This document shows, piece after piece, positions 15,493 to 21,141 of a stretch of DNA of 64,000 nt. The position numbers and the translations under genes were made by a program. The stretch is from NCBI RefSeq assembly GCF_021502675.1, contig NZ_JAKFHA010000016.1, positions 32,922-96,921 of the forward strand, given 5' to 3'. The DNA is from Yinghuangia soli (lineage in GTDB: Bacteria > Actinomycetota > Actinomycetes > Streptomycetales > Streptomycetaceae). The notes below the pieces were generated by a model. That model saw only the letters and a list, made by a program, of their open reading frames with translations. It searched no databases and was not told the DNA's origin. Numbering within the stretch: the stretch's first letter is position 1; each line of letters opens with the position of its first letter.

Positions 15493-16631
15493 CCGGCACG
15501 ACCCCTTCCACCTCCGCTGCCGCGGCCGTACGGATCGACGATCTGCCGATCCGCGATGAGCTGCGCGGCCAATCGCCTTACGGCGCACCGCAGTTGCACG
15601 TCCCGGTACGCCTCAACACCAACGAGAACCCGTACCCGCTGCCCGACGAGCTGGTCGACCGCATCGCCGAGCGCGTCGCGGACGCCGCGCGCGAGCTCAA
15701 CCGCTACCCGGACCGCGACGCGGCCGAGCTGCGCACCAAGCTCGCCGCGTACCTCTCCGAGACCGGCGGCGTCGAGCTGGGCACCGCCAACGTGTGGGCG
15801 GCCAACGGCTCCAACGAGGTGCTGCAGCAGCTGCTCCAGGCCTTCGGCGGCCCCGGCCGCACCGCGCTGGGCTTCGACCCGTCGTACTCGATGCACGCGC
15901 TCATCGCGCGCGGCACCGGCACCGACTGGATCTCCGGCACCCGCCGCCCGGACTACTCGATCGACCTCGGCGAGGCGCTCGCCGCCATCGCCGAGCACCG
16001 GCCGAACGTCGTCTTCCTGTGCTCGCCGAACAACCCGACCGGCACCGCGCTGGACCCCGCGGTGGTCGAGGCGGTGTACGACGCGGCCCAGGCGGCCCGC
16101 CCTTCGCTCGTCATCCTGGACGAGGCGTACATCGAGTTCTCGCACGGCGTCTCGCTCCTGACGCTGCTCGAGGGCCGGCCGAACCTGGTCGTCTCGCGCA
16201 CGATGTCGAAGGCCTTCGGCGCCGCCGGCCTGCGCCTCGGCTACTTGGCCGCGGACCCTGCGGTGGTGGACGCGGTCCAGCTGGTGCGCCTGCCGTACCA
16301 CCTCTCCGCGGTCACCCAGGCCACCGCACTGGCCTGCCTGGAGCACACCGGGACGCTGCTCGGGTACGTCGCGGAGCTCAAGCAGCAGCGCGACCGCATC
16401 GTCGCCGAACTGACCGGCATGGGCTGCGAAGTCACCGCGTCCGACGCGAACTTCGTGCAGTTCGGCCGCTTCGAGGATGCGCACGCCGTGTGGCAGGCGA
16501 TCCTCGACCACGGCGTCCTGGTCCGCGACAACGGAGTCCCCGGGATGCTGCGGGTCACCGCGGGCACCGATGCCGAGAACACCGCGTTCCTGGACGCGAT
16601 GCGCGCCGTACTGAAGGAGATCAACCGATGA
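15489..16631 (+). CDS. hisC: Histidinol-phosphate aminotransferase
   Basis: PLP-dependent enzyme converting imidazole-acetol phosphate and glutamate to histidinol phosphate. It is 380 residues, a fold-type I class II aminotransferase. Visible are the [10 protein letters not shown]-terminal motif, [15 protein letters not shown] (PLP aspartate) and the Schiff-base lysine in SRTMSKAFG with the downstream GLRLGY arginine. The GTG start overlaps the hisD stop (GTGA), so it is translationally coupled. Its own stop overlaps hisB. Confidence 0.95.
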
Positions 16632-17224
16632 CCCGGATCGGCCGCGTCGAACGCGCCACGAAAGAGACCTCCGTCCTCGTCGAGGTGAACCTCGACGGTT
16701 CCGGCCGGGTGGACGTCGCGACCGGCGTCGGCTTCTTCGACCACATGCTCGACCAGCTGGGCAAGCACGGCCTGTTCGACCTCACCGTCAAGACCGACGG
16801 CGACCTGCACATCGACTCGCACCACACCATCGAGGACACCGCGCTGGCGCTGGGCGGCGCGTTCCGCCAGGCGCTCGGCGACAAGGCGGGCATCCGCCGC
16901 TTCGCGAACGCGTCGGTGCCGCTGGACGAGGCGCTCGCGCAGGTCACGGTCGACCTGTCGGGGCGGCCGTACCTGGTGCACAGCGAGCCCGAGGGCATGG
17001 CGCCGATGATCGGGACCGCGTACGACACGACGCTGACGCGGCACATCCTGGAGTCGTTCGTGGCGCAGGCGCAGATCTGCCTCCACGTGCACGTGCCCTA
17101 TGGGCGCAACGCGCACCACATCGTCGAAGCGCAGTTCAAGGCGCTCGCCCGGGCGCTGTCCGACGCGTGCGTGCTGGACCCGCGGCGCGCGGGCGTGATC
17201 CCGTCGACGAAGGGCGCGCTGTAG
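16628..17224 (+). CDS. hisB: Imidazoleglycerol-phosphate dehydratase
   Basis: Monofunctional dehydratase of 198 residues; the HisN phosphatase domain found in enterobacteria is absent, as usual for actinobacteria. Metal-binding histidines appear in the two family motifs, [14 protein letters not shown] (about 60-73) and [14 protein letters not shown] (about 159-172), plus FFDHMLDQ at 37-44. The ATG overlaps the hisC stop. The phosphatase step (HisN) must be encoded elsewhere. Confidence 0.95.
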
Positions 17225-17226
17225 GG

Positions 17227-17922
17227 ATGGGGCAGACGTACCAGCACATCCTCGTCCGCGCCGCGGCCGAGGACGTCGTCGAGGCGATGCTGCCTGACGA
17301 CACCGGGTACGTGTTGCCACTGATCGACGGTGTGAGCGCACTGTTCATGGACGAGTCCGCATACCGGCTCGACGAAGAGGCCGAACGCCTCAGCGGCGCG
17401 CTGCGGACCGATGCCATGACGGTCGGCGTGCTGATGTCGGACTTCTTGATCGCGCACGCCTACCAGGACGGTGTGTCGGTCAACGAGTACCACTCCGGTC
17501 CGGATACCGTGCAGGTCACCGAGGACGCGGACGGGGTCTTGCGGTTCGCGGACGGCACTGTCTTCGATCCTTACCGCGACGAGTTCCCGCGCCCTGAACC
17601 GGTGGGCGGCGAACCGCGGTGGTTCCTGCCGTACGGCGTCCCCGAGGCCGAAGCCGAAACCGTTGCGCAGGTGCTCCGCTGCGAGGCACCCGATGGCAGC
17701 GAACTCGGCGCCGAAGGGCAGCACGCCTACCTCTACATCGCACTCGGCCTGCCGGTGCTCTGCATCGGCTTCCGACATCTCGACGACGATCTGCTGAACA
17801 ACCCCGGCCTGGAGCAGCTGTTCGCCGCGGCCCTGCCGTTCGGCGAAGCCGAGCCGATCGTTCCGGTCGAAGAACCCGAGACCACCACAGAAGGCACTGA
17901 AGGCACCTCATGGGAACGCTGA
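17227..17922 (+). CDS. Uncharacterised protein inside the his operon
   Basis: A 231-residue acidic protein of unknown function, starting 2 bases after the hisB stop. It has no signal peptide or membrane segment and no motif that I recognise. The middle has a tract of alternating strands with conserved-looking GGEPRWFLPYG, and the C-terminal 25 residues are Glu/Thr-rich and probably disordered. It overlaps the following small membrane-protein gene by 13 bases. The tight packing implies co-expression with histidine synthesis. It need not be a his enzyme, and no function should be assumed. Confidence 0.78.
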   Translation: MGQTYQHILVRAAAEDVVEAMLPDDTGYVLPLIDGVSALFMDESAYRLDEEAERLSGALRTDAMTVGVLMSDFLIAHAYQDGVSVNEYHSGPDTVQVTEDADGVLRFADGTVFDPYRDEFPRPEPVGGEPRWFLPYGVPEAEAETVAQVLRCEAPDGSELGAEGQHAYLYIALGLPVLCIGFRHLDDDLLNNPGLEQLFAAALPFGEAEPIVPVEEPETTTEGTEGTSWER

Positions 17923-18062
17923 CCGTCGTATTCATCGCCCTCGGGTTGTTCCTGATCGGCGGGGTCATCTCGTTCGCCAAGCAGGGCATGCCGAAGGGTG
18001 TCATCGTCCTCCTCGGACTGTGCGCGGCCATGTCGCTCGCCGCCGGTCTGCTGCGCATCTAG
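17910..18062 (+). CDS. Small two-helix membrane protein inside the his operon
   Basis: A 50-residue ORF starting with ATG at 17910 inside the end of the previous gene and ending with TAG at 18060-18062. It predicts two hydrophobic helices, about residues 4-21 and 31-48, joined by a short basic turn ([10 protein letters not shown]). A GGCAC-type leader gives only a weak ribosome-binding site, so translation is likely coupled to the upstream gene. Codon use has the GC-rich third positions of its neighbours. Similar small membrane proteins sit next to hisH in other streptomycetes, from memory; function unknown. Confidence 0.65.
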
Positions 18063-18075
18063 TAGGGATCGCACC

Positions 18076-18705
18076 ATGAAGAAGGTCGTCATCCTCGACT
18101 ACGGGTCGGGGAACCTCAGGTCGGCCGAGCGCGCGGTGGCGCGCCTCGGTGTCGAGGTGGAAGTCACCGCCGACTACAAGACCGCACTCAACGCCGACGG
18201 GCTCGTGGTCCCCGGCGTCGGCGCGTTCGCCGCGTGCATGGACGGGCTCAAGGCGGTCCGCGGGGACCGCATCGTCGATCGGCGCCTGGCCGGCGGCCAG
18301 CCGGTGCTCGGGATCTGCGTGGGCATGCAGATCCTCTTCGAGCGCGGCGTGGAGCACGGCGTGGAGACCGCGGGCTGCGACGAGTGGCCCGGGACGGTCG
18401 AGCGCCTGGAGGCGCCGATCGTGCCGCACATGGGCTGGAACACCGTGGACGCGCCCGAGGACACCGTCCTCTTCAAGGGCATGGACGCCGACACCCGCTT
18501 CTACTTCGTCCACTCCTACGGCGTCCGCAAGTGGGAGATGGTCCCCTCCGACCACCTCGCGCCGCCGATGGTCACGTGGGCCACGCACGGCACGCCGTTC
18601 GTCGCGGCCGTCGAGAACGGGTACCTGTCCGCGACCCAGTTCCACCCCGAGAAGTCCGGCGACGCCGGGGCCCAGATGCTCCGCAACTGGCTTGCCACCC
18701 TCTGA
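18076..18705 (+). CDS. hisH: Imidazole glycerol phosphate synthase, glutamine amidotransferase subunit
   Basis: Class I glutaminase that supplies ammonia to HisF for formation of IGP and AICAR. It is 209 residues. The catalytic triad is visible: Cys81 in GICVGMQ, His190 and Glu192 in HPEKSG. The N-terminal [11 protein letters not shown] motif and oxyanion region PGVGAF are intact. ATG 18076 has AGTAGGGAT upstream. It works as a heterodimer with the hisF product encoded three genes later. Confidence 0.95.
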
Positions 18706-18724: not shown

Positions 18725-19465
18725 ATGAGCGAGACCCCAGCCAGTCGCCTCGAACTGCTCCCCGCCGTCGACGTCGTGAACGGCCAGGCGGTACGCCTCG
18801 TCCAGGGCGAAGCCGGTTCCGAGACCTCCTACGGCGACCCGCTGACCGCCGCGCTGGCCTGGCAGAGCGCCGGCGCCGAGTGGATCCACCTGGTCGACCT
18901 GGACGCCGCCTTCGGGCGCGGCAGCAACAGCGCGCTGCTCGCCGAGGTGGTTGGCAAGCTGGACATCCCCGTCGAGCTGACCGGCGGCCTGCGCGACGAC
19001 GCCACGCTGGAGGCCGCGCTGGCCACCGGCTGCCGCCGGGTGAACCTGGGCACCGCGGTGCTCGAGCACCCCGAGTGGGCGCGCGAGGCCATCGGCCGGC
19101 ACGGCGACCGCATCGCGGTGGGCCTGGACGTGCGCGGCACCACGCTGGCCGGCCGCGGCTGGACCCGCGAAGGCGGCGACCTGTTCGAGGTGCTGGCCCG
19201 CCTCGACGCCGAGGGATGCGCCCGCTACGTGGTGACCGACGTCAACAAGGACGGCACCCTCACCGGCCCCAACCTGCAGCTGCTGCGCGACGTGTGCGCG
19301 GCGACCGACCGCCCGGTGGTGGCCAGCGGCGGCGTCTCGTCGCTGGACGACCTGCGCGCGATCGCCGAACTCGTCCCGATGGGCGTGGAAGGCGCGATCG
19401 TGGGCAAGGCCCTCTACGCGAACGCGTTCACCCTGGAAGAGGCCTTGGAGGCGGTGTCCCGATGA
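18725..19465 (+). CDS. priA: Bifunctional HisA/TrpF isomerase PriA
   Basis: A 246-residue (beta/alpha)8 isomerase. In actinobacteria this enzyme performs both the ProFAR isomerisation of histidine synthesis and the phosphoribosyl-anthranilate isomerisation of tryptophan synthesis. The two catalytic aspartates are visible, Asp16 in LLPAVDV and Asp172 in [10 protein letters not shown]. The Arg-containing loop [12 protein letters not shown] and GGLRDD are typical of PriA rather than plain HisA. Since trpF is absent from the trp genes in this window, the dual role is expected. ATG has GAAGGAACGAG upstream. Its stop overlaps the ridA start. Confidence 0.93.
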
Positions 19466-19854
19466 CCGGTGTCGAGCGGTTTTCCTCGGGCGGTCCGTAC
19501 GAGGACGTCATCGGCTACTCGCGTGCGGTCGCCGCGGGCGACTTCGTGCTGGTGTCCGGCTGCACGAGCATCGTGGACGGCATCTTCATCGGCGAGGGCG
19601 ACCCGTACGAGCAGGCCCTGACCGGCTTCAAGACCGCCGAGAAGGCGCTCGCGCAGGCCGGCCTGTCGCGCGCCGACGTGGTGCGCACCCGCATGTACCT
19701 CACGCACGCCCGGGACGCCGACGCGGTCGGGCGCGCGCACAAGGAGATGTTCGACGAGGTCCGGCCCGCCGCGACGATGGTCGTGGTGGCCGCGCTGGTC
19801 GACTCGCGCATGCTGGTCGAGGTCGAGGTCGAGGCGTACCGGGGGGCCAAGTGA
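19462..19854 (+). CDS. RidA-family enamine/imine deaminase in the his operon
   Basis: A 130-residue YjgF/YER057c/UK114-fold protein. Rid proteins hydrolyse reactive 2-aminoacrylate and related imines formed by PLP enzymes. The key arginine lies in [10 protein letters not shown] (about residue 75), and the [10 protein letters not shown] start of the fold is intact. It sits between priA and hisF with overlaps on both sides (ATGA and GTGA), so it is an integral cistron of the operon. Its presence fits the toxicity of PLP-enzyme intermediates. Which Rid subfamily it belongs to is not settled here. Confidence 0.88.
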
Positions 19855-20769: not shown

Positions 20770-21141
20770 ATGAGCACCGACCTGAACACCTACGGCGGCG
20801 GCCTGGACAGCAGCTACGGCGTGCTGGTGGTGACCACGAACGACGCCCCCGGCTACCGGGTCGACTCGGTCATCGGCGAGATCTTCGGCCTCACCGTGCG
20901 CTCCCGGCACCTCGGCAGCCAGCTCGGCGCGGGCCTGAAGTCGATCGTCGGCGGCGAACTGCGCGGCCTGACCAAGACCCTGGTGGAGAGCCGCAACGAG
21001 GCGATGCAGCGCCTCATCGAGCAGGCCCGGGCCCGCGGCGCCAACGGCGTGCTGGCGATGCGCTTCGACGTCACCGACGCCGGCAACGGCACCGAGATCT
21101 GCGCGTACGGCACCGCCGTGGTGATCAGCCGCGCGGAGTAG
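20770..21141 (+). CDS. YbjQ/DUF74-family heavy-metal-binding-domain protein
   Basis: A 123-residue protein of the YbjQ (DUF74, heavy-metal-binding domain) family. The family pattern is visible in VLVVTTNDAPGYRV, EIFGLTVRS, LVESRNEAMQRLIEQARARGANGVLAMRFD and the closing AYGTAVVI. These proteins form pentamers and their role is not established. ATG follows CGGAGGACCCG, a strong ribosome-binding site. It lies after the his operon terminator and is probably monocistronic. Confidence 0.88.
   Translation: MSTDLNTYGGGLDSSYGVLVVTTNDAPGYRVDSVIGEIFGLTVRSRHLGSQLGAGLKSIVGGELRGLTKTLVESRNEAMQRLIEQARARGANGVLAMRFDVTDAGNGTEICAYGTAVVISRAE

Follow-up and report, generated by a model that had tools for sequence, protein, structure and literature searches.

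The closest described system is the his operon of C. glutamicum, in which, according to the passages of PMC3896937 on this operon, hisB is directly followed by cg2302 (orf1), then by the MFS-like gene cg2301 and then by hisHA. The same passages give cg2302 as a gene of unknown function and cite an unpublished observation that deletion of cg2301 left the growth of a histidine auxotroph on histidine unimpaired. As described in the part of PMC6432763 on this operon, a histidine-producer strain carries the whole hisDCB-cg2302-cg2301 operon under a strong promoter. In the open-licence papers searched, the small membrane protein treated below was found described only as cg2302/orf1 of this one species, and no description of its soluble neighbor was found.

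The window (the whole 64,000-nucleotide stretch of DNA analysed here) differs from the cg2302 locus in that it has no MFS gene after hisB but has a gene for a soluble protein, which we call X, upstream of the gene for the small membrane protein, which we call the hairpin. The genes around the junction are as follows.

16628–17224, + strand: hisB, imidazoleglycerol-phosphate dehydratase (NCBIfam NF002110, E 7.8e-98)
17227–17922, + strand: X, 231-residue acidic soluble protein (open reading frame; homologs before hisH in families f2, f11, f35 and f42)
17910–18062, + strand: hairpin, 50-residue two-helix membrane protein (open reading frame; conserved small protein of the his operon)
17910–17922, + strand: overlap of the X and hairpin reading frames, 13 bp
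18076–18705, + strand: hisH (TIGR01855, E 9.6e-63)
18725–19465, + strand: priA, hisA/trpF bifunctional isomerase (TIGR01919, E 1.4e-117)

The original prediction had placed two uncharacterised genes of 231 and 50 codons, overlapping by 13 bases, between hisB and hisH, and all of this was borne out: both reading frames and their overlap are found, Pfam is blank for both proteins and NCBIfam gives nothing above its cut-off. The description of X as acidic also agrees with its composition (19 D, 26 E and 11 R, with K absent). The ATG of X lies 2 bp downstream of the hisB stop (17224), the hairpin frame opens with an ATG, and hisH starts (18076) 13 bp beyond the end of the hairpin. Both frames look coding because their GC3 (0.835 for X and 0.90 for the hairpin) stands against a GC2 of 0.42; this GC3 is lower than that of the his enzymes (0.975 for hisB, 0.976 for hisH). 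A search of the region for RNA elements returned two matches, both far below gathering scores and neither convincing, and a search for regulatory sites found no promoter-like site and one terminator-like site against 0.6 expected. Further downstream, a RidA/L-PSP gene (19462–19854; Pfam PF01042, E 4.5e-21) lies between hisA/priA and hisF and overlaps the hisA stop, and a YbjQ family gene (20770–21141; Pfam PF01906, E 3.5e-32) is found shortly 3′ of hisF.

The two-helix architecture assigned to the 50-residue protein is reproduced by AlphaFold, which places helices at residues 3–24 and 29–48 with a pLDDT of 97.7 (38-row alignment). The protein thus has the size and shape that define the family, about 50 residues with two predicted transmembrane (TM) helices, and carries the motif LxGGxxSxxKQ ahead of the turn. 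G17 and G18 are invariant in 24 of 24 diverse rows, and in window-centered alignments S21 and Q25 are invariant and K24 almost so. The turn region has at least two K/R residues in 24 of 24 rows and the N-terminal tail has none in 21 of 24. Because positive charges cluster at the turn and are mostly missing from the N-terminal tail, the positive-inside rule suggests that the turn is probably cytosolic; the C-terminal tail, with at least one K/R in 16 of 24 rows, weakens the topology call at that end.

Selection on the hairpin was estimated from 80 named loci, 77 of which aligned without gaps to give 71 distinct rows. The pN/pS ratio is 0.50 in frame, compared with 0.86 and 1.75 in the shifted frames (45 of the 71 rows), and the median dN/dS over the 71 rows is 0.43. 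The hairpin is therefore under protein-level constraint, which is real yet moderate.

In size and helical hairpin shape the window protein resembles Ost5/TMEM258-like subunits, and its best Foldseek match is the OST chain 6s7o_C (TMq 0.76); the match is, however, not significant (E 0.86 in PDB). With the Pfam threshold relaxed to an E value of 1, 7 of 27 hairpin rows match Ost5 (best 0.0054), 8 of 27 match UbiA and 8 of 27 match FixQ (best 0.00053 and 0.0083, respectively), and the row of the window itself has no match. The likeness to Ost5 is one of generic hydrophobicity, not of homology. A PHROG search with the 50-residue protein returned only noise (E ≥ 0.33), and PADLOC gave no match.

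Among 61 relatives searched, the hairpin was found in all 37 Streptomycetaceae genomes (E ≤ 1.8e-7). In the 30 best genomes with loci (26 from the family and 4 from the order), the order hisB, hairpin, hisH is invariant, with X intervening between hisB and the hairpin in two of them (G000 and G001). A scan of named genomes gave at least 565 hairpin relatives. The best 80 of these loci are nearly all from Streptomyces (other names, as deposited, are Actinacidiphila, Streptantibioticus, Streptosporangium nondiastaticum and Microtetraspora glauca); all 80 read hisB-hairpin-hisH, and their hisB-hisH gap of 166–264 bp has no room for X. In another Streptomyces genome (G191; L103, 1044–2435, + strand) an insertion of about 1.4 kb parts the hairpin from hisH and carries an IS605 OrfB/TnpB-type gene (Pfam PF01385, E 1.3e-31) antisense to the operon. 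Plasmid records contain one hairpin, in the order hisB-hairpin-hisH, in an 11.85 Mb Nonomuraea record labeled as a plasmid.

To cover the class, 197 genomes were sampled, and the hisB-hisH gap was read in one or a few genomes of most families for any small ORF with two TM segments, irrespective of its sequence. Such ORFs of 48–57 residues occupy the gap in f2, f3, f4, f9, f19, f25, f26, f34, f39 and f40, some of the loci read (f2, f3, f25, f36 G242 and f39 among them) having been chosen because the hairpin profile matched; in f36 the gap holds a two-TM ORF in one of five genomes read. The hairpin was also confirmed in f37 and in a second f26 genome, and in f19 it is present in 15 of 15 genomes. 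In f5 (G053) it sits between hisH and hisA, still inside the his operon. Altogether, about 15 families, f1 and f6 included, have the hairpin in the his operon.

Fifty-seven loci around hisH supplied 2,195 frames for a search with a profile restricted to the window's order (f1 and f3), whose top 16 matches were all his-operon hairpins, 15 of them before hisH and the other that of G053. The weakest of the 16 had an E value of 0.11 and the next match 0.34; 13 are from outside the window's order, and G037, G038 and G051 are from within it. This profile did not pick up the f9 hairpin. A broader one (A4), in which many gap-hairpin rows are included by construction, detects the hairpin in 48 of the 197 class genomes at E < 1e-5. 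In 45 of these 48 it is at the his locus: 41 copies are directly before hisH, and the others are in G191, G053, G124 and G134, the last two placed by tblastn. The relatives of G058, G081 and G155 are away from the his locus. Because 45 of 48 class genomes with a hairpin carry it at the his locus, this gene order exceeds chance expectation by far. In a sample of 198 genomes from the phylum, for 168 of which the class is not shown, all ten hairpin matches belong to the window's class. The 50-residue gene is thus a real conserved family with members in the his operons of much of the class.

Family f6 has the hairpin in 106 of 251 genomes (E ≤ 0.001), and loci were placed for the best 30 of these 106. 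In ten of the 30 the hairpin follows hisB. In three of the ten (G707, G838 and G829), from a genus with genomes of 2.2–2.9 Mb, the hairpin comes directly after hisB, with hisH not within 1.5 kb. An MFS gene adjoins the hairpin in G707 and G685 (Pfam) and in G838 (by eye); the Pfam MFS_1 E values are 2.4e-33 (L295) and 2.1e-31 (L311), with L307 assigned by eye. G658 and G730 have opposite-strand genes after the hairpin, and four other genomes read hisB-hairpin-hisH. The opposite-strand gene between the hairpin and hisH in G658 (L309, 1713–2783) belongs to the TerC family (Pfam PF03741). The position of cg2302 after hisB is that of the hairpin, and in G707, G829 and G838 a profile-matching hairpin occupies precisely this place; judged by position and by these family members, the window hairpin and cg2302 are probably of the same family.

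The MFS neighbors raise the question of whether the hairpin is an accessory subunit or regulator of a cg2301-type MFS transporter of the histidine pathway, the permease being encoded elsewhere in most Streptomyces. The hisB-hairpin-MFS order in G707, G685 and G838 and the hisB-cg2302-cg2301 order reported in the cited passages of PMC3896937 are consistent with this explanation. Among the loci read, however, an MFS neighbor of the hairpin is confined to part of a single family, no permease intervenes between the hairpin and hisH at most hairpin loci, and deletion of cg2301 is cited in the same source as without effect on the growth of an auxotroph on histidine. We regard a role tied to such a transporter as quite improbable.

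The other 20 of the best 30 f6 hairpins are away from his genes, and all belong to one genus, g51. In 19 tested of these 20, none of hisB, hisH and hisA is found within 1.5 kb of the hairpin, and in G081 hisH is on a different contig. In g51 the gene has left the his operon, or it is a relative outside it. In two g51 genomes (L253 of G081 and L254 of G155) the hairpin relative adjoins an AtuA-family gene (Pfam on L253), acyl-CoA and thiamine genes lie further away (by eye), and hisB and hisH are adjacent elsewhere. In G058 the relative (L256, 6528–6692) is immediately followed by a UvrD/PcrA helicase gene (Pfam).

X is distributed differently. A single-sequence search, which is insensitive in that it missed the X of G037, gave matches with E ≤ 0.001 in 4 of 61 relatives, located at the his locus in G000 and G001 and elsewhere in G007 and G050. 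Two of the 37 Streptomycetaceae genomes thus have X at their his locus, and in 24 of 26 Streptomycetaceae loci read the gap between hisB and the hairpin is too short for it; the third genome of the window's genus (G002) reads hisB-hairpin-hisH with X absent. A six-row X profile matched 8 of 245 genomes of the order, four of them rows of the profile itself, with two at the his locus (G000 and G037) and the rest solitary. No shared neighbors were seen around the solitary X genes in gene calls read by eye. A tree of the X genes of the order leaves the his-located and the solitary ones without clear separation. Plasmids gave no X.

Outside the window's family, G037 (f2, another family of the same order) has hisB-X-hairpin-hisH, as in the window, and an X-like protein occupies the hisB-hisH junction in four of eight f11 genomes of the class sample, in four of four f35 genomes and in f42 (G206). 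In full, X lies between hisB and hisH in G000, G001, G037, G059, G083, G156, G167, G097, G129, G176, G226 and G206, and away from this site in G007, G050, G149, G458, G557, G571 and G601. In G167 (f11), hisB and X are separated by a methyltransferase-like gene. X and the hairpin occur together in G000, G001 and G037; in f35 and f42, X has no hairpin gene alongside.

These distributions bear on the suggestion, in the original prediction, that a soluble and a membrane protein are co-expressed with the histidine enzymes, which absence from other his operons was to refute. The hairpin is conserved at the hisB-hisH site and present in other his operons (the 45 of 48 class genomes above), and X is missing from most his operons of its own family (2 of 37 Streptomycetaceae). 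A fixed unit of the two did not hold up, the hairpin usually being alone and the X of f35 and f42 being without it. X is thus rare and patchy in its own family, with homologs before hisH in five actinomycete families including its own. A recent insertion of X, considered in view of its absence from most Streptomycetaceae, was set aside in view of the X genes before hisH in f2, f11, f35 and f42.

The homology of the X proteins was examined by searching 10,322 six-frame stretches, drawn from all the loci, with lineage-restricted profiles. The best non-self matches of the Streptomycetales profile are the four f11 proteins (E 6.9e-7, 3.1e-5, 3.2e-4 and 1.2e-3; next 0.032), and a profile of the three his-located Streptomycetales rows places three of these four first after known relatives, weakly (0.004, 0.013 and 0.069). 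In the reverse direction, the f11 profile reaches G206 of f42 (3.2e-6), the solitary G007 (5.7e-6), G129 of f35 (0.018), G176 and G037 (0.053 each) and G001 (1.0), with the window X not among its matches. With the f35/f42 profile, three f11 proteins are recovered (1.1e-7, 6.1e-6 and 1.6e-3) ahead of two unrelated frames (0.006 and 0.026), and the fourth is at 0.17. Comparison of the three groups by hhalign gives E values of 4e-7, 7e-9 and 7e-4, the last, between Streptomycetales and f35/f42, being the weakest link, for which f11 serves as a bridge. Profile similarity between families exceeds that of decoys.

Beyond these relatives, X has no family match in Pfam, NCBIfam, PHROG or PADLOC and no sequence relative with a solved structure (best PDB E 0.08), and the AlphaFold model of X alone (pLDDT 34) was discarded. 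A defence or phage origin was rejected: the PADLOC and PHROG profiles do not match, and no shared neighbors were seen by eye around the solitary X genes. In two f11 genomes (G059 and G083), X ends in two C-terminal TM segments (hydropathy). This pair has no detectable homology to the hairpin, and its interpretation as a fused hairpin copy was dropped. The X proteins of the other two f11 genomes, like those of f35 and f42, have neither a C-terminal TM pair nor an adjacent hairpin. A soluble-plus-two-TM protein of about 219 residues fills the hisB-hisH gap in G080 (f32; L090, 692–1351), and its comparison with X gives an hhalign E of 0.034 or worse. The gap of f21 was considered as a further case and set aside: an opposite-strand alpha/beta-hydrolase gene (Pfam on L079, by eye on L108, with L109 having the same gap size) occupies it. 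In f21 (L079, L108 and L109) this gap of about 1.2 kb splits hisB from hisH.

X evolves fast. Comparison of the window with G001 gives pN/pS values of 0.33/0.48 (X) and 0.20/0.26 (hairpin), against 0.018/0.35 (hisB) and 0.041/0.35 (hisH), and the proteins are 46% (X), 61% (hairpin), 97% (HisB) and 92% (HisH) identical. The window hairpin is nearer to that of G002 (83%) than to that of G001, and HisB and HisH rank the genomes oppositely, a pattern that fits an exchange or a fast change of the X-hairpin block in the window or the G001 genome. Strict co-evolution with the enzymes is not visible in these identities, and this counts against the hairpin as a membrane tether. Such a tether would use its cytosolic turn, alone or together with X, to bring HisH/HisF, PriA or HisB to the membrane, and histidine synthesis would thereby be linked with export, with the energy state or with some other process at the membrane. 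The same proposal also has to accommodate hairpin relatives outside his loci and the representatives of many families in which hisB and hisH adjoin with neither gene. Its merits are that the commonest position of the hairpin in the class sample is between hisB and hisH, that the turn is basic and conserved, and that the G053 hairpin, lying between hisH and hisA, retains its operon membership. Coupling of histidine synthesis to the membrane, as the original prediction had it, is possible but finds no support here; recruitment of these enzymes by the hairpin is in our judgment unlikely.

The hisB-hisH gap is at most 82 bp, with neither gene, in representatives of f7, f8, f15, f16, f17, f20, f22, f23, f24, f28, f29, f30, f31, f33, f38 and f41 and in part of the representatives of f6 and f36. 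Since so many families have hisB next to hisH without either gene, the hairpin and X are not generally needed for histidine synthesis. Together with the non-his locations, including the 20 of the best 30 f6 matches in one genus, these families make the strongest rival to the accessory role set out below. According to it, the his operon serves only to express a small membrane protein of a general kind and a soluble protein unrelated to it, and the gene order is kept because rearrangement within an operon is costly. The solitary X genes, around which no shared neighbors were seen, the moderate dN/dS of the hairpin and the high pN/pS of X are in line with such passengers. They explain less well that the hairpin keeps to the same operon across about 15 families although its absence is tolerated, that X homologs of five families are placed before hisH, and that the G053 hairpin moved and is still in the his operon. 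We consider this explanation as a whole, the borrowed expression together with the order kept by cost, doubtful, if less so than a tether.

Proteins of this size with two helices frequently serve larger membrane proteins as accessory subunits or regulators. Combining these findings, we propose that the 50-residue gene encodes an inner-membrane two-helix hairpin with a basic, probably cytosolic turn, which would be made from the his operon in tight packing with the neighboring genes. Rather than being a biosynthetic component, the hairpin would most likely belong to a larger membrane protein or complex as a small accessory subunit, produced when the his operon is active; in some lineages the complex may include the adjacent cg2301-type permease, and the permease adjacency in part of f6 points the same way. 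X would be an optional cytosolic partner, fast-evolving and probably docked to the membrane, which is retained at the same site in some lineages. We infer the accessory role, the topology and the partnership of X from the conservation of the hairpin at the his locus, its confidently modeled fold (pLDDT 97.7), the K/R distribution between turn and N-terminal tail, the MFS adjacency and the co-occurrence of X and hairpin; the TM pair fused to X in G059 and G083 argues for an X-membrane partnership by analogy only. Several observations count against an accessory subunit: the hairpin relatives away from his genes (G058 and the 20 f6 loci), the moderate constraint (dN/dS 0.43), the majority of hairpin loci with no permease before hisH, the X genes of f35, f42 and two f11 genomes with neither TM pair nor hairpin, and the harmless deletion of cg2301 in an auxotroph on histidine, as cited in PMC3896937. 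The whole statement, accessory hairpin plus optional docking partner, is accordingly tentative, with a chance that we put somewhat below even. That a conserved membrane hairpin family of his operons exists, together with a patchy X family, is by comparison nearly certain.

A bolder version would make his operons of actinomycetes encode a membrane-bound control module, in which the hairpin anchors X, a fast-evolving soluble sensor that in some cases has a TM pair of its own, and recruits HisH/HisF-PriA or an exporter of the pathway to the membrane. If this were true, a membrane signal would set the flux in the branch that the pathway has in common with tryptophan and purine synthesis; we hold it to be very unlikely.

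Few operons have been studied as well as the his operon, yet in a large part of the Actinomycetes an unstudied membrane gene lies in its middle. The findings make the hairpin a conserved family and X a second, unnamed one that is met repeatedly at the hisB-hisH junction. For histidine-producer strains the finding is of relevance in that cg2302 lies within the engineered hisDCB-cg2302-cg2301 operon, as described in the part of PMC6432763 cited above. The hairpin may prove to be an ordinary accessory operon gene, yet it is a good and overlooked target, and its conservation as a family makes it a clear candidate for deletion in Streptomyces and C. glutamicum.
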